Source of the DNA: Chloroflexota bacterium
Lineage (GTDB): Bacteria > Chloroflexota > Dehalococcoidia > Lucifugimonadales > UBA2985
Assembly (NCBI GenBank): GCA_028877205.1
Contig: JAPPHY010000012.1
Coordinates: forward strand, 1 to 64,000
Direction: 5' to 3'
Length of the DNA stretch: 64,000 bases
The stretch's first letter is position 1. Every line of letters starts with the position of its first letter. Positions 24,597-56,408 of this stretch are shown here, one piece after another. The position numbers and the translations under genes are program-made. The notes below the pieces were generated by a model. That model was not told where the DNA came from and made no database searches. It saw nothing but the letters and a program-made list of their open reading frames with translations.

Positions 24597-24832
24597 GCCC
24601 TTCGACAAGCTCAGGGTGAGCGGACTGTCTGGCGAGAGTTGGTTCCCGGCCCGCTCGTGGTGAGCCTGTCGAACCATGCGAGCGGGCCACTCGCCGTCCG
24701 CTCATTTCCTTCGACGGGCTCAGAGCCTGCCCCGTACTTGATACGGGGATGAGCGGACTGTTTGGCCAGTGCCAGTCCCTGGCCCGCTCGTGGTGAGCCT
24801 GTCGAACCATGCGAGCGGGCCCCGGGTAGCGG
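24597..24832. repeat. Intergenic palindromic repeat cluster (two elements)
   Basis: TTCGACAAGCTCA (24601-24613) with TGAGCCTGTCGAA (24661-24673), and TTCGACGGGCTCA (24710-24722) with TGAGCCTGTCGAA (24794-24806). Confidence 0.85.
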
Positions 24833-47920: not shown

Positions 47921-48006
47921 CCGCTCGTGGTGAGCTTGTCGAACCATGAGCGGGAAGACACCGTCGTCGTTCATCCGCCCGCCCTTCGACAGGCTCAGGA
48001 CGAGCG
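47921..48006. repeat. Intergenic palindromic repeat element
   Basis: TGAGCTTGTCGAA (47931-47943) and TTCGACAGGCTCA (47985-47997). Confidence 0.85.
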
Positions 48007-48430: not shown

Positions 48431-49120
48431 TCAGCCGCCGGATGCGTGATTGTGGCCGCGCAACCAGCGGTACACAAGCGCGCCTGCCGCGGCTCCGAGA
48501 AACGGCCCCGCCCAGTATACCCAGTGGCTCGACCACACCCAGCCGCTCAGCGCCGGCCCGAACGACCTCGCCGGGTTCATCGACGCCCCCGAAACCGGCC
48601 CGCCGAACGTGGACTCCAGCGCAACCGTCATCCCTATCGCCAGCGCAGCCGCGTGTCCGGCTGCGCGCACGTCCGTGGCCACCGCCATGATGACGAACAT
48701 CAGGATGAATGTCAGCGCCACCTCCATGCCCAGCGACTGCACGTCGCTGCCGGACGGCAGGGTTGAGCCCATGTCGCCCACGCGACCGAAGAGCAGCAGG
48801 TGCCCTCCGCCGGCCGCGGCTGCCCCGGTCAACTGCGCGCCCCAGTACACCGGCACCTCTCGCCAGGGAAAGTGGCGAGTCAGGGCAAAGCCAAGCGTGA
48901 CCGCCGGGTTGATGTGGGCACCGGAGATGTGGCCCGTAGAGTAGATCATGGCGGCAACGATCATGCCGAAGGTGAGTGAGATGCCCAGGTGGCCTATGCT
49001 CCCGCCGGACACCTCGTCGACGATGATTGCGCCTGCGCCCGCGAATACAAGGCCCGCAGTGCCAAGCGCCTCAGCCGCTGCACGCCGCAGGACGGTGTCT
49101 CTGCTGCCCGCGTCCGGCAA
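48431..49120 (-). CDS. MIP-family channel (aquaporin/aquaglyceroporin)
   Basis: 229 aa, six TM; two NPA motifs SGAHINPAVTLGFAL and SGASMNPARSFGPAL. Confidence 0.95.
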   Translation of the reverse strand: MPDAGSRDTVLRRAAAEALGTAGLVFAGAGAIIVDEVSGGSIGHLGISLTFGMIVAAMIYSTGHISGAHINPAVTLGFALTRHFPWREVPVYWGAQLTGAAAAGGGHLLLFGRVGDMGSTLPSGSDVQSLGMEVALTFILMFVIMAVATDVRAAGHAAALAIGMTVALESTFGGPVSGASMNPARSFGPALSGWVWSSHWVYWAGPFLGAAAGALVYRWLRGHNHASGG

Positions 49121-49123
49121 GGG

Positions 49124-49789
49124 CTAGTACCTTGAGACGTTGATCTCGGTCATCTTCCCTGTGACCATAAAGATGACTCGCTCTGCAATGTTGGTGGCGC
49201 GGTCGGCAATGCGCTCCAGGTCGTGGGCCACCCACAACAGGTAGGTGGCTCGCTGAATGCTGTTGGTGTCCTGCACCATGAAGAAGATCAGCTCCCTGTA
49301 CACCTGGTCGTAGAGCGCGTCCACGTCGTCGTCGTCGTTGCAGACGGCCAGCGCCGCCACGGTGTCCCTGTGCACCAGCGAGTCCAGGCTTCGCCGCAGC
49401 ATGTCGGTCACCATCTCTGACATCCTGGGCAGGTCGATGAGCGGTTTCAGTGGAGGCTCACCTTCCATCATCAAGCAGATCTTCGCAATGCCCTCCGCGT
49501 AGTCGCCCATGCGCTCCAGCTCTACGGCTATGTGCAGCATGGTGATGATGCTGCGCAGATCGCCGGCCATCGGCTGCTGCGTGGCGATCAGCTCGATGCA
49601 CTGCTCCTCGAGGTTGTACCTCTTGCTGTCTATGAAGTCGTCCTCGCGAATCACCTGGCGTGCGCCCTCCGCGTCCCTCCGTTTTAGCGCGTCCAGGGAC
49701 TTTGCGATCGCCTTCTCCACCATGCTCCCAAGGATGAGAAGGTCGCTCTGGAGCATCCTCAAGTGCCTGTCGAAGTCCGTTCTAACCAT
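49124..49789 (-). CDS. phoU: Phosphate transport regulator PhoU
   Basis: MVRTDFDRHLRMLQSDLLILGSMVEKAIAKSLDAL; LRSIITMLHIAVELERMGDYAEGIAKI; start set inside the longer ORF 49124-50464. Confidence 0.94.
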   Translation of the reverse strand: MVRTDFDRHLRMLQSDLLILGSMVEKAIAKSLDALKRRDAEGARQVIREDDFIDSKRYNLEEQCIELIATQQPMAGDLRSIITMLHIAVELERMGDYAEGIAKICLMMEGEPPLKPLIDLPRMSEMVTDMLRRSLDSLVHRDTVAALAVCNDDDDVDALYDQVYRELIFFMVQDTNSIQRATYLLWVAHDLERIADRATNIAERVIFMVTGKMTEINVSRY

Positions 49790-49818
49790 GACTCCACCTC
49801 CCTGCGTGCGCCTGTCCA

Positions 49819-50661
49819 TCAGCTGAAGCGGCCCGTGATGTAAGCCTCCGTGTGCTCGCTCTTGGGGTTGGTGAAGACCTCGCTGGTGGGTCCGTACTCC
49901 ACCAGGTATCCGGCCTTGTCCTGGTCCATCATCAGGAACGCCGTGTGGTGCGAGACCCTGGCGGCCTGCTGCATGTTGTGAGTCACGATGATGATGGTGA
50001 CCTCCTGCGACAGCTCGCGAATCAGCTCCTCCACGGCCAGCGTGGCCATTGGATCGAGTGCCGAGCACGGCTCGTCCATCAGGATGACCTCGGGTTCCAC
50101 CGCCAGCGCCCGCGCGATGCAGAGCCGCTGCTGCTGGCCCCCTGAGAGCTGGAGGGCGCTCTGCTTCAGCCGGTCCTTCACCTCGTCCCAGAGCGCAGCG
50201 CGCCGCAGCGACCGCTCCACCCGCTCGCTCGTGTTGCCGCTGATGCCGTTCACCTTCAGCCCGAACGCCACGTTCTCGAAAATCGACTTCGGAAACGGGT
50301 TGGGCTTCTGGAACACCATCCCGATGCGGCTGCGCAGCTCCACGGGGTCGACGCCGGCGCCGTAGATGTTCTCGCCCTGATAAAGCACTTCGCCCTTCAC
50401 GTGGCCGCCGGAGGACATCTCGTGCATACGGTTCAGGCAGCGAACCAGCGTGCTCTTGCCGCACCCGGACGGGCCTATTATGGCGCTAACCCGCCTGGAG
50501 TACAGCGACAGGGAGATGTCCTTGAGCGCACGGTTCTCGCCGTAGTACGCCTGGAGTTCGCGCACGTCAATGACCGACTCAGGTGTCGCGTCCCTGGCAG
50601 GTTCCACCGCTGCCTCCGCCGTTGTAGTCTGGGGCAGATTCAAGAAGTTCTCCGTCACCAT
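49819..50661 (-). CDS. pstB: Phosphate ABC transporter ATP-binding protein PstB
   Basis: [54 protein letters not shown]. Confidence 0.97.
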
Positions 50662-51545
50662 CTGCTTCTCCTAGAGTATATGTTGCGCAGGGTTATCGCA
50701 ACCGCATTCATAAGCATCAGCACCACCAGCAGCACTATGATTCCGGCCGCTGCGTTCTCCCGGAATTCCGGCAGGGGCTTGCTGATCCAGCTGTAAATCT
50801 GCACGGGCAGCACCGTGAACGAGTCCGTTGGGGTGGTGGGGACGAACAGGACGGTGGTGAACGCCCCGATTGCTATCAGGGGCGCCGTCTCCCCCACGGC
50901 CCTTGCAAGCGCGAGGATGAAGCCGGTCAGTATGGTCGGCATGGCCGCTGGAAGCACCTGGAAACGGACGGCCTGCCAGCGTGTGGAGCCGAGCGCCATC
51001 GCCGCCTCGCGGATGGTCGGCGGCACCGACCGCAGACCCTCGCGCGCCGCCACGACTATTATCGGCAGGATGAGCAGCGCCAGCGTGAGCGCACCCGCCA
51101 GCACGCTGCGGCCGAGCCCCATCCAGTACACGAAGATTGCCAGCCCCAGCAGCCCGTATACCACCGATGGCACCCCCGCAAGGTTGTTGATGTTGATTTC
51201 CACGATTCTGGTGAACCAGTTGCGAACGGCGAACTCCTCCAGATAGATTGCTGCCCCTACGCCTGCAACCATTGCGAATACGGCTGTCAGTGACATCACC
51301 CAGAGCGTACCTGCCAGCGCCGACTTGGCCCCGGCCTTCTCCGCCTGGTAGTGCGGAAAGCTGTTTATGAACTCAAGGCTCAGTACGCCGATGCCGTCCC
51401 GGAGAACATCAAGCAGCAACGCCGCCAGGGCCACCATGCCCAGGGACGTCGCCAGTATCGCCAGCAAGATGAAGGCGGTCCCTCGTGCCTTGCGGACTGT
51501 TCGGCTCATGGGGATGGGTCTGTCACGAGCAATCGCGGGAATCAA
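50655..51545 (-). CDS. pstA: Phosphate ABC transporter permease PstA
   Basis: [45 protein letters not shown]-type [15 protein letters not shown]. Confidence 0.95.
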
Positions 51546-52465
51546 TCGTAAATCTCCCTGAATCTCGCCAGCACGGCCTGCGCCAGCATGTTGATCGACA
51601 GCGTAAATATGAACAGCAGCAACCCCACGGCAAAGACGCTTTGGTATTCCACGCCGCCCCGTTCGGTGTCGCCGAAGACCACCTGGGCGATATACGCCGT
51701 CATGGTCTGCATGGGCTCGAGTGGGTTTGCGGAGAAGTTCGCGATGCTCCCGGCCGCGATGGTCACTATCATCGTCTCACCGACGGCCCGCGCAAGCGCC
51801 AGCAGTGCGGCCGCCACGATTCCAGACAGCGCCGCCGGCACCACCACCTTCACCGATACCTGGAAGCGATCCGATCCCACGGCGTAGGCACCCTCTCGCA
51901 GGGACGCGGGCACGGCGCGCATCGCGTCCTCGCTGAGGGACGCCACCATGGGAATCAGCATCACGCCCATCGCCATCGCCGCCCCAAGCGCCGTGAACGG
52001 GGTTTCCGTGGAGAACAAGGGCTTGATGATAGTTGGGTTGATGAACGAGATTGCGAAGTAGCCGAGCACGACAGTGGGAATGCCCGCCAGAACCTCCAGC
52101 ACCGGCTTGACTATCGACCGTACGCCCTCCGGGGCGTACTCGCTCAGGTAGACGGCCGTCAGCAGCCCCACAGGCACTGCTATAGCGAGAGCCGCGAAGG
52201 ATATAACCACCGTGGCCGACAGAAGGGGCAGCACGCCGAACTGCTTGTTCGAGAACAGAGGCGTCCACTCGGTGCCAGTCAGAAACTCGAACACCGGCAC
52301 CTCGCGGAAGAACTGCAGCGCGCCCTCCAGCAGCACGATGACTATACCCACGGTGGTCCCAATGGACGCCAGGGCGCACATAAACAGGAATGCGAGGATG
52401 GGAGCTTCCCGCATCCTCTGCCGGAGGCGCCTGTTCCTCGAATATTCGGCGATGAGGTTCGCCAA
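51542..52465 (-). CDS. pstC: Phosphate ABC transporter permease PstC
   Basis: EWTPLFSNKQFGVLPLLSATVVIS, GIPTVVLGYFAISFI, ARAVGETMIVTIAAG; TTG start at 52465 adjoining pstS. Confidence 0.93.
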   Translation of the reverse strand: MANLIAEYSRNRRLRQRMREAPILAFLFMCALASIGTTVGIVIVLLEGALQFFREVPVFEFLTGTEWTPLFSNKQFGVLPLLSATVVISFAALAIAVPVGLLTAVYLSEYAPEGVRSIVKPVLEVLAGIPTVVLGYFAISFINPTIIKPLFSTETPFTALGAAMAMGVMLIPMVASLSEDAMRAVPASLREGAYAVGSDRFQVSVKVVVPAALSGIVAAALLALARAVGETMIVTIAAGSIANFSANPLEPMQTMTAYIAQVVFGDTERGGVEYQSVFAVGLLLFIFTLSINMLAQAVLARFREIYD

Positions 52466-52466
52466 C

Positions 52467-53501
52467 CTACTGCGTCCTCTCCAGCACGTCTTCGATCGGT
52501 GAACCGGCAGGCACGTCCTTGAACACCGATCCGGTAGTGCGACTGTCCAGCCTGTCCAGTGCCCAGGCGTAGATCTCCGGCGGAAGTGGCACGTAGCCCA
52601 CGGCCGTGACAAGGCTGGGCGCCTGCTCGATGTAGAACCTGACGAACTCCTCCACCTCCGGGCGCTCGTCCAGCGTGTCGCCCCTAACGTAGATAAAGAT
52701 CGCCCTGGCGAGAGGCAGGTAGTCGCCGGCTTCCACCGTCTCCGCAGAGGGCTCTACGCACTCTCCCGTCGCCGGATTCACTATGTGGACTCCCTTCACC
52801 AGCTCCTGGTATTGCGCGTAATACGCCAGCCCAAAGTACCCGATGCCTCCGGGCGAGCCGTTCACGCCCTGCGCTATCAGGGGGTCCTCTTCCGTCGCAA
52901 GGTCCATGTCACCCCTGTGTGCACCGCTCTCGTGCATGATCGCCTCGGTGAAGTAGTCGAATGTGCCGGACGCCGTCGTGGGTCCGTACAACCTCAGCGT
53001 CTCGTCCGGAAACGACGGATCCACCTGGTTCCAGTTCGTGACCACGCCCTGGGCGTCAGGCCCGAAGATCGTCGCCAGGTGCTCCACCGTCAGGCACTCC
53101 GCCCAGTCGTTGCCGGGACTCACCACCACCGACAGTGCATCGAAGGCCACGGGAATCTCTATGACCTCGATGCCGTTCTCCGCGCACGTGTCCAACTCCG
53201 ACTCTTTCGACGGCCTGGACGCATCCCACACGTCGATCTCACCGGCGCACATCGCCCGACCGCCCGCGCCCGTGCCCGTCGACGCCACGTTGACCCGTAC
53301 ACCGGGCTGGACAAAGTTGAACTCCACTGCCATCGCCTCGCTAATTGGGAACACCGTGCTCGATCCGGTCACGGCCACTTCTCCTTTTGGTTCCCCGCAT
53401 GCCGCTGTCAATCCCAGCATTAGTAGTGCCATGAAGAGGGCTCCCGAAATAGATCGGAAGCCCGCAAGTCCAGTCTTGGTTGTCGCGGTTACCAGTCTCA
53501 T
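52467..53501 (-). CDS. pstS: Phosphate-binding lipoprotein PstS
   Basis: Lipobox LTAACG; VAVTGSSTVFPISEAMAVEF; ASRPSKESELDTC; YGPTTASGTFDYFTEAIM. Confidence 0.95.
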   Translation of the reverse strand: MRLVTATTKTGLAGFRSISGALFMALLMLGLTAACGEPKGEVAVTGSSTVFPISEAMAVEFNFVQPGVRVNVASTGTGAGGRAMCAGEIDVWDASRPSKESELDTCAENGIEVIEIPVAFDALSVVVSPGNDWAECLTVEHLATIFGPDAQGVVTNWNQVDPSFPDETLRLYGPTTASGTFDYFTEAIMHESGAHRGDMDLATEEDPLIAQGVNGSPGGIGYFGLAYYAQYQELVKGVHIVNPATGECVEPSAETVEAGDYLPLARAIFIYVRGDTLDERPEVEEFVRFYIEQAPSLVTAVGYVPLPPEIYAWALDRLDSRTTGSVFKDVPAGSPIEDVLERTQ

Positions 53502-53542
53502 CCTTGGTTTATCGAACCTCCGTCCAAGTCTATGGATGCACC

Positions 53543-53581
53543 GTTAACGGCTCGTTAACCTGAGTTTAAGTGACCGTTAAG
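53543..53581 (-). promoter_or_regulatory. PHO-box-like array 1 (four 11-bp-phased units)
   Basis: TTAA cores at 53544, 53555, 53566 and 53577, exactly 11 bp apart; coding-strand consensus (C/G)TTAAC. Confidence 0.75.
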
Positions 53582-53673
53582 CGAATGCTAGAGCGGATTA
53601 AGGTACTCTCCCTCGAGCGGTTCCCCCTACGCCTTGCTGTTGGAGTCATCAATTGCACAGTAGACCCCTCAGG

Positions 53674-53712
53674 TTAACGCCACTTTAGGGCAGAGTTAAG
53701 CCACGGTTAGGA
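53674..53712 (-). promoter_or_regulatory. PHO-box-like array 2 (four 11-bp-phased units)
   Basis: TTAA/TTAG/TTAA/TTAG cores at 53675, 53686, 53697 and 53708, exactly 11 bp apart. Confidence 0.7.
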
Positions 53713-53857
53713 TTTGGTGAAATTCAGGGCGGTGATCGCCCGCCGGTCCGGTGAGCCTGGCAAAGCGACGCCTACCGCATTCGTAACCCTTGCGAAGCCT
53801 GTCACGCTTGCGCGGGGACAAGCTTCCGCAGGAAAGTCGGTGGGGGAAGGAAGCCGC

Positions 53858-53939
53858 CCGCTCAGTCCTTCGACAAGCTCAGGATGAGCGGGCACAGTTC
53901 CCCCGTTCGTGCTGAGCATGTCGAAGCATGAACGGGCGG
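53858..53939. repeat. Intergenic palindromic repeat element
   Basis: TTCGACAAGCTCA (53869-53881) and TGAGCATGTCGAA (53913-53925). Confidence 0.85.
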
Positions 53940-53949
53940 CCGCGCGGCC

Positions 53950-55713
53950 TTACGTCGCGCGTGGCAGCGTGAAGGTGAAGGCGCTGCCCTCACCTTCCCG
54001 GCTCTGCACCGCTACCTCTGAGCCGTGCGCCTGCACAATGTGCTTGACGATGGCAAGGCCCAGGCCGGTGCCTCCGCCCTGCCTCGAACGGTCAGCCTTG
54101 TAGAAGCGCTCGAAGATGTGGGGGAGGTGGTCCTCCGGTATGCCCGCACCGCTGTCCCTTACCCCAACTCTCACCATATCCTCCTCCGGGTACGCCGAAA
54201 GCGTCACCCAGCCTGTACCCGGCGTGAACTTCAGAGCGTTGTCCAGCAGGTTGATCAGCACCTGCCGCAGCCTCTCCTCGTCTCCCACCGCGCGCGGCAA
54301 TCGCTCCGGCGCTATCACCTCAACCCGCACGTTCTTGTTGTCCGCCCGTTCCTGGAAGCTCTCCTTGACCTCGGTCATAAGCAGCCGAAGGTCGACGGTG
54401 TTTAGGGAAAGCAGCCCCTGCCGGCTGTCTAACCGCGCCAGGTCCAGCAGGTCTTCGACCATCCTGCTCATCCTGTCCACCTCCCAGTTGATGCGACGCA
54501 CGAAGTCTCTTGCAACTTCCGCTTCATCCAGCGCGCCATTGTCCAGCGTCTCCACAATGGCCTTCACGGAAGCCAGCGGGCTCCTGAGCTCGTGGGAGAC
54601 GTTGGTGACGAACTCCCTGCGGGTGGTCTCCACCTGGTGCATCCTGGTCAAGTCGTGAATGGTCAGAAGCACCCACGTGGCCTCGGCCTCCACGATCGGA
54701 GTAGCGATGGCGCTGAGGAAGCGAACGGGTTGAAACAGCTCCACCTCGCCGTGCTGTTGCTCCCCGGTCTTGAGGCACGTCGCCACCAGCCGGTTCAGGT
54801 CGGAGTCGCGGACCACCTCCGGGAATCTCATGCCGAGAGGCTGCGGCTCCCGCACGCCCAGCATCTCCAGGCCTGCTATGTTCACCAACTCGGTACGCTC
54901 CTCCGGCCCGATCAGCGCCACGCCGTCTGCCATGGTATCCAGCACCGCCGAGAGCTTGTCGCGCTCGCCGGACAGCTCCTGTACCATGCTCCTGAGTGAC
55001 GAGGCCATGCTGTTGAATGCGTCCGCCAGCTCGCGCGTCTCGTCCGCTGCCAGCGCCTCCACGCGATGCTCCAGGTCGCCGAGGGCCACCTGGCGCGCGG
55101 CTTCGGTCACGCTGCGCACGGAGCGCGCGGTGCGCCGGGCCAGGTAGTAGCCCAGCGCCAGCGAAAGCACCGACACGACCACAGCGGATATGGCTATGGT
55201 GGTGATAATGCGGCTGACGTTGGAGTGGATCGCGGACGTGGGTATCGCCACTCTTGCCACGCCGACCAGTTCCCCGTCAGCCTGGATTGGCGCGGCGGTA
55301 TAGAGCAGCTCCTCTCCCTGCGCGGCGCTCACCCGGGTGCTCCAGCTGATGTCACCCGCTAGCGCCTCCCTCACCTCAGGGCGCTGGGCCTGGTTCTGCA
55401 GCTGGTCAGGCCGCTCCCACGTATCCGCCAGCACTTCTCCATCGCGGTCCATCACGGTGACACGTGCCTCGATGAGGCCTCCTACGCGCTCGCCCGTCTC
55501 ACGCAGGCCGTCCAGGTCGAGCCCCCCGTCCAGGAACGGAGCCAGGCTTTCCGCCGCCAGGACAGCTTCCCGCTCCAGCCGTTCCTCAAGGCCGGATATG
55601 TACGTGTCGCGCACAAAGTTGACAAGGTAGATGCTCACCGCACCCATGGAAACTATGATGAGGACGGTGTAGGAGAGTACGATGCGCCACTGGAGACTGT
55701 GCAGGAGGTTCAT
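53950..55713 (-). CDS. phoR: Sensor histidine kinase PhoR-like
   Basis: 587 aa; two TM, HAMP, PAS; HisKA FVTNVSHELRSPLASVKAIVETL; RLRQVLINLLDNALKFTP; RFYKADRSRQGGGTGLGLAIVKHIV. Confidence 0.93.
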   Translation of the reverse strand: MNLLHSLQWRIVLSYTVLIIVSMGAVSIYLVNFVRDTYISGLEERLEREAVLAAESLAPFLDGGLDLDGLRETGERVGGLIEARVTVMDRDGEVLADTWERPDQLQNQAQRPEVREALAGDISWSTRVSAAQGEELLYTAAPIQADGELVGVARVAIPTSAIHSNVSRIITTIAISAVVVSVLSLALGYYLARRTARSVRSVTEAARQVALGDLEHRVEALAADETRELADAFNSMASSLRSMVQELSGERDKLSAVLDTMADGVALIGPEERTELVNIAGLEMLGVREPQPLGMRFPEVVRDSDLNRLVATCLKTGEQQHGEVELFQPVRFLSAIATPIVEAEATWVLLTIHDLTRMHQVETTRREFVTNVSHELRSPLASVKAIVETLDNGALDEAEVARDFVRRINWEVDRMSRMVEDLLDLARLDSRQGLLSLNTVDLRLLMTEVKESFQERADNKNVRVEVIAPERLPRAVGDEERLRQVLINLLDNALKFTPGTGWVTLSAYPEEDMVRVGVRDSGAGIPEDHLPHIFERFYKADRSRQGGGTGLGLAIVKHIVQAHGSEVAVQSREGEGSAFTFTLPRAT

Positions 55714-56408
55714 GCCTCAAACCGGTAGCCTACGCCCCTGATGGTGATGATCTTCCTGGGTTGCCCTGGTTCCGTCTCGATCTTCTCTCTAAGCCACCGC
55801 ACGTGCACGTCCACCGTGCGGCTGTCGCCGATGTAGTCGTATCCCCAGAGACGCTCCAGAATCTGGTCTCTCGTGAACGCTCGACCCTTGTTGGACACCA
55901 GCAGGGTCAGCAGTTCGAACTCCCTTGGCTTGAGGTCGAGCGCGTTGCCGGCTACCTTGGCCGTGTGCCCGGTCAGGTCGATCTCGACGTCCCCGGCTCT
56001 GACCACGGTGTTGCCGGCGGCCGGTTCGGCAGGCGAGCCCATAGCGGAGCGCCTCAGCATTGCTCGGACTCGCGCCAGCAGCTCTCTCATGCTGAAGGGC
56101 TTGGTCACGTAGTCGTCGGCGCCCAGCTCCAGCCCCACAACCCGGTCAATCTCCTCGCCCTTGGCCGTGAGCATGAGGATGGGTGTGTTGGTCTCGCGTC
56201 GGAGAATGCGGCACACCTCAAGGCCGTCGAGTCTGGGAAGCATAACGTCGAGCAGTACGAGATCCGGCACGCCTTCCCTTGCGAGTTGAAGGCCGCCCTC
56301 GCCGTCGGTTGCGGTGAGGACGGAGAAGCCCTCTCTCTCCAGGCTGTACCTCAGGGCTTCGAGGAGGTTCTCCTCGTCCTCAATGACCAGGACCTTCTGC
56401 TCAGGCAA
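55710..56408 (-). CDS. phoB: Response regulator PhoB-like (OmpR family)
   Basis: KVLVIEDEENLLEALRYSLEREGF receiver; DLVLLDVMLPRLDG; C-terminal RDQILERLWGYDYIGDSRTVDVHVRWLREKIE; TTG start at 56408. Confidence 0.93.
   Translation of the reverse strand: MPEQKVLVIEDEENLLEALRYSLEREGFSVLTATDGEGGLQLAREGVPDLVLLDVMLPRLDGLEVCRILRRETNTPILMLTAKGEEIDRVVGLELGADDYVTKPFSMRELLARVRAMLRRSAMGSPAEPAAGNTVVRAGDVEIDLTGHTAKVAGNALDLKPREFELLTLLVSNKGRAFTRDQILERLWGYDYIGDSRTVDVHVRWLREKIETEPGQPRKIITIRGVGYRFEA

Follow-up and report, generated by a model that had tools for sequence, protein, structure and literature searches.

Two probable tandem Pho promoters built of TTAAC-type repeats upstream of pstS in a Dehalococcoidia-type genome

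Two separate arrays of short direct repeats stand upstream of pstS in the bacterial genome studied here, and they raise the question of which regulator, if any, recognises them and whether they represent one promoter with a duplicated operator or two promoters in tandem. The window (the whole stretch of 64,000 nucleotides that was analysed) belongs to a 2.0-Mb, 96%-complete assembly of 22 contigs. Judged by the pst region, its nearest named relative is a MAG of the Dehalococcoidia (Chloroflexota), L066, which is the same as G013 by match of coordinates and identity, and the genome is therefore most likely of that class. On the minus strand the genes follow the order tRNA-Pro, PhoB-like regulator, PhoR-like kinase, a gap of 448 bp, pstS, pstC, pstA, pstB and phoU, and both arrays are located inside the gap between the kinase gene and pstS.

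Examination of the coding (minus) strand showed that both arrays consist of 11-bp direct repeats of the unit (G/C)TTAAC-N5, each with four clear units and a weaker fifth one, in phase, at the upstream end (TCTAGC and TTTCAC). The initial annotation of this DNA had placed TTAA/TTAG cores at 53544/53555/53566/53577 and 53675/53686/53697/53708, had described each array as exactly phased at 11 bp and had put the arrays about 130 bp apart; we recovered the same cores within one base, exact phasing in both arrays, and a distance of 130 bp between corresponding units. Arrays were scored as the number of matches out of 20 to four TTAAC at period 11 on the coding strand, and on this scale the two arrays reached 19 and 17. 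Periods from 8 to 15 other than 11 never gave a score above 12, none of 300 dinucleotide shuffles of the whole 64-kb window reached 16, and a scan of the whole 2.0-Mb genome with up to 3/20 mismatches, which is pattern matching only, found matches at only these two places and none for the reversed-pattern control. The arrays are therefore far beyond chance. Direct repeats at an exact 11-bp period are one of the properties by which PHO boxes are recognised, and both arrays have it.

Analysis of related genomes showed placement ahead of phosphate-uptake genes together with conservation in relatives, another property expected of a PHO box. A pstS gene was found in 37 of 60 related genomes, and among the 29 order-level pstS loci with enough upstream sequence (window included) 21 carried an array significant at 0.01 against shuffles. 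Arrays with at most 2 mismatches occurred in 47 of 250 genomes of the order, compared with about ten (tallied by eye) for the reversed control, and Thermoflexus as well as Nitrospirota-type and Nitrospinota-type records likewise had arrays of the same core ahead of pstS. Phased arrays in the pstS promoters of relatives, which had been proposed as a check by conservation, are present in most order relatives having pstS. The 136 units collected have T, T, A, A and C at positions 2 to 6 in 85%, 99%, 86%, 93% and 62% of cases, respectively, and yield the consensus (G/C/T)TTAAC(C/A), the remaining positions being mostly variable and ending in C, which is the pattern of about 7 conserved and about 4 variable nucleotides that characterises PHO boxes. 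Two arrays in tandem were recovered by this procedure at three order-level loci (the window, G009 and G034). A possible fourth such locus is L190 (G186), where by inspection the arrays stand 131 bp apart beside pstS without a clear TAnnnT, and in G013, which has the pstS closest to that of the window (75% identity), there is one array only. A near-identical second copy of the pst array of G018 was observed in that genome at C1:1959423 (L189, C1:1957500-1961500, position 1961 minus), in surroundings of repeated sequence with no evident phosphate gene, and was set aside as a working Pho box because it has no sensible target gene.

The distance between the arrays and a -10 element is also conserved. 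When all arrays were aligned on their last unit, 20 of the 32 (18 of 30 if those of the window are set aside) had a TAnnnT starting exactly 16 nt from that unit's first base, against a background of 0.021 per position (binomial P about 7e-26 for offset 16), and the other two-array loci from the same procedure, G009 and G034, have it at offset 16 in both of their arrays. In E. coli MG1655 the -10 elements of pstS and phoB (TATTTT and CATAAT) lie, as counted by hand, 17 nt from the C of the last CTGTCA unit, and because the shared core is preceded by one base more in CTGTCA than in GTTAAC, the offsets of 17 and 16 are in the same register. The E. coli rule places the box 10 bp upstream of TAN3T/A (PMC1906773), and the last unit of both window arrays stands about 10 bp upstream of a TAN3T -10 element, as expected of PHO boxes. 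This geometry fails on the opposite strand, which indicates that the arrays point towards pstS; a reading in the other orientation was rejected, the plus strand having no TA at the required place for either array. An ordinary -35/-10 promoter was likewise discarded, as no consensus one was found in the array region. With a -10 element at the conserved offset for both arrays, and on this strand only, each array seems to serve a separate promoter (Table 1).

Table 1. Features of the pst-pho locus in window coordinates; array units are listed in coding-strand order.
Feature	Position	Strand	Basis
Predicted Pho-box array 1 (proximal): TCTAGCATTCG CTTAACGGTCA CTTAAACTCAG GTTAACGAGCC GTTAACGGTGC (53592 to 53538)	53538..53592	-	19/20, best four units
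Predicted Pho-box array 2 (distal): TTTCACCAAAT CCTAACCGTGG CTTAACTCTGC CCTAAAGTGGC GTTAACCTGAG (53722 to 53668)	53668..53722	-	17/20, best four units
Candidate -10 element, proximal promoter P1 (TAGACT)	53527..53532	-	16 nt from last unit's first base; conserved offset
Candidate -10 element, distal promoter P2 (TACTGT)	53657..53662	-	16 nt from last unit's first base; conserved offset
pstS, phosphate-binding protein, first gene of the operon	52467..53501	-	NCBIfam TIGR02136, 245 bits, above cut-off
pstC	51542..52516	-	TIGR02138, above cut-off
pstA	50655..51545	-	TIGR00974, above cut-off
pstB	49819..50661	-	TIGR00972, above cut-off
phoU	49124..49795	-	TIGR02135, above cut-off
PhoR-like sensor histidine kinase	53950..55713	-	PhoR/PnpS/WalK-type models match, all below curated cut-offs; position kept in relatives
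PhoB-like OmpR-family response regulator, inferred binder of both arrays	55710..56408	-	profile and structure-database matches; recognition-helix residues common with E. coli PhoB

Taking these results together, the arrays are very probably Pho boxes for a PhoB-type regulator. It is likely that both of them are active promoters. The explanation that we favour is probable to a similar degree: the PhoB-like regulator would drive two promoters in tandem, 130 bp apart, and each of these would have a Pho box of its own. Building on the arrays, their conservation, the -10 spacing and the co-occurrence with the regulator, all of them direct observations, we infer binding, phosphorylation, activation and start sites as follows. 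At low phosphate the PhoR-like kinase would phosphorylate the PhoB-like regulator encoded next door, and the regulator would bind each array head-to-tail, one monomer per 11-bp (G/C)TTAAC-N5 unit, towards pstS. Once bound, it would stand in for the -35 element and recruit a sigma-70-type RNA polymerase, which would use the TAnnnT -10 element whose first base lies 16 nt from that of the last unit. P1 and P2 would both read pstSCAB-phoU, with a transcript leader of roughly 20 nt from the proximal P1 and of roughly 150 nt from the distal P2. We counted against this explanation the single array of G013, the score of the regulator below the PhoB cut-off along with the other regulators of its superfamily, and the very short leader that P1 would leave. 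The initial annotation regarded the arrays as operators of the neighbouring PhoB, and the conserved arrays, the fixed -10 distance and the tracking of the regulator support that claim; its description of them as duplicated operators should probably give way to one of two complete promoters.

The same locus could also be read as having only one promoter, driven by the proximal array, with the distal array as an auxiliary PhoB platform (for cooperative loading or looping) or as a decaying duplicate. Such a reading would fit the single array of most relatives, including the nearest pstS relative, as well as the weaker score of the distal array (17 against 19 of 20) and the two-array locus L190, in which inspection found no TAnnnT at the expected place. 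The distal array of the window has, however, TAnnnT at the exact conserved offset, like both arrays of G009 and G034, and we consider it rather unlikely that only the proximal array drives transcription.

The protein encoded at 55710-56408 has the receiver and winged-helix domains of the OmpR/PhoB superfamily. Comparison with the NCBIfam PhoB equivalog TIGR02154 gave 234.8 bits, below the curated cut-off of 296.2, and we therefore name it PhoB-like and not formally PhoB. Its closest PDB entry is the full-length RegX3 of M. tuberculosis (2oqr, 6.8e-68), other full-length regulators matching too, and its effector domain matches the PhoB-DNA entry 1gxp. Its identity with E. coli PhoB is 41%, and in an alignment that relied on the rows of the window, G009 and E. 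coli its recognition helix (the third helix, RTVDVHVRWLR) is identical at 9 of 11 positions to residues 193-203 of E. coli PhoB (RTVDVHIRRLR).

Binding of the arrays by another OmpR-family regulator, for example a WalR-like one, is highly improbable in our estimation. The genome has eight regulators of OmpR-family kind, at least seven others of the same superfamily being encoded besides the neighbouring one; WalR boxes also have 11-bp phased units; and the best NCBIfam match of the neighbour is WalR/YycF (NF040534), although its 269.9 bits are below the cut-off of 340. Against this, the presence of the array tracks close relatives of the neighbouring regulator: among the 34 genomes in which the region upstream of pstS could be read, it was found in 21 of 23 genomes with such a relative and in 1 of 11 without (Fisher 5e-6), where a close relative means E <=1e-70, a cut set once the data had been seen (drawing it at 1e-60 gives P = 2e-4), and the counts are raw genome counts uncorrected for kinship. 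Several relatives have phoB-phoR directly upstream of the pst genes, and the match of the recognition-helix residues to E. coli PhoB points in the same direction. Finally, it is hardly credible that the arrays have no operator role and are an AT-rich repeat arisen by chance or an RNA element in the leader of pstS. The repeats of TTAAC are indeed short, with a partly palindromic sequence (GTTAAC), but the shuffles and the genome-wide control rule out a chance repeat, the phase and the -10 spacing are conserved, and a structured RNA leader is ruled out by the lack of an Rfam match and a folding that is not unusual (z 0.21).

Comparison of the predicted promoters with known Pho boxes places them within a familiar family. 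The E. coli PhoB boxes of pstS and phoB resemble those of the window in having 11-bp units on the strand of the gene with the -10 element at the same fixed distance, but their core is CTGTCAT whereas it is GTTAACC here; the CTGTCA-type units of E. coli pstS occur in more than one group. The PhoP boxes of Bacillus subtilis (Firmicutes) are TTAACA-like, about 11 bp apart and in four units, so that their unit and their number of units per array, as generally described, are like those of the window. The SphR box of the cyanobacterium Synechocystis PCC 6803 is built of CTTAACCT copies in tandem and in the same direction, joined by linkers of 3 bp to give an 11-bp period, and stands ahead of pst, sphX and phoA genes, with binding demonstrated (PMC1906773). 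It has the TTAAC core and the 11-bp period in common with the window arrays, but the SphR sites have been reported to hold at least three units each, whereas here there are two arrays with four to five units apiece, and SphR binding was shown in Synechocystis, while for the window arrays binding is predicted. The novelty suggested by the difference of the TTAAC unit from E. coli CTGTCAT is accordingly weak, the published SphR box being CTTAACCT + 3 (PMC1906773). In Streptomyces, the PHO boxes of PhoP are 11-nt direct repeat units of GTTCACC-N4 in several unit arrangements (PMC4415409, PMC6283541), and their core differs from that of the window in one main base (TTCAC against TTAAC), TTCAC variants being present here; the S. 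lividans pstS promoter has two 11-bp units (PMC2605767), in contrast to the two arrays of four to five units in the window.

A literature search found no paper on Pho boxes of Chloroflexota or Dehalococcoidia. What we describe is for the most part ordinary biology, from a bacterial group that has received little study; its mildly unusual point would be the two complete Pho promoters in tandem, and it leaves the view of the mechanism unchanged. The range of the TTAAC-type Pho box and its exact -10 spacing would come to include a Chloroflexota order that is largely uncultured, for which there is now a usable motif to predict Pho regulons, namely four TTAAC at 11 bp and a TAnnnT that begins 16 nt from the first base of the last unit. 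The core common to cyanobacteria, Chloroflexota and Nitrospirota-type records, as opposed to CTGTCAT of E. coli, also bears on the evolution of the box.

The genome-wide scan that had been suggested as a way to find further phosphate targets returned, as a pattern scan, none that was convincing. Relaxing the search to three units with at most 2 mismatches gave one further place in the genome (C14:292609), against one match of the control, and nothing around that place points to a phosphate gene. A third genomic match at C14:292598 was rejected as a Pho box, as it lies about 630 bp from a MarR-type gene, is built of a 22-bp repeat and has no phosphate gene nearby. On that contig (L195, G000 C14, position 3136 minus) we observed TTAACCCG(C/A)ATGTTAC in two copies of 16 bp at a distance of 22 bp, which at about 630 bp from the MarR-type gene resemble an alternating half-site array. 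A tentative and speculative possibility is that some bacteria of this Dehalococcoidia order run pstSCAB-phoU from two complete tandem PhoB-type promoters whose near-consensus proximal and weaker distal arrays switch on at separate thresholds of active regulator and so grade the response; in this genome they would serve what seems to be the sole phosphate importer, and hardly anything else in the regulon.

Searches of the genome (G000) for Pit (PF01384) and for the Na/Pi cotransporter (PF02690) gave no family match, so that the organism may import phosphate through Pst only. No pstS match was obtained in four genomes of the same family (G001-G004, 87-92% complete), even though the best matches of LeuS from this contig are in genomes of that family (80%), and the pst-pho cassette (49124-56408) therefore seems to be patchy within the family, through loss or gain; by the same LeuS result the contig fits its genome, and a mis-binned contig was rejected. 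An aquaporin-like gene at 48431-49120 adjoins the pst genes of the window, and G186 has an aquaporin 54% identical to it (L190 2271-2942), divergent beside pstS and with the Pho arrays in between. The genome also contains a dispersed repeat with the core CTTCGACAAGCTCAGGA, of which there are 39 copies at no more than 1 mismatch (control 0), those in the window being at 53868-53884, 47984-48000 and 24600-24616; one copy lies between phoR and pstS and is followed by the near-inverse CTGAGCATGTCGAA.
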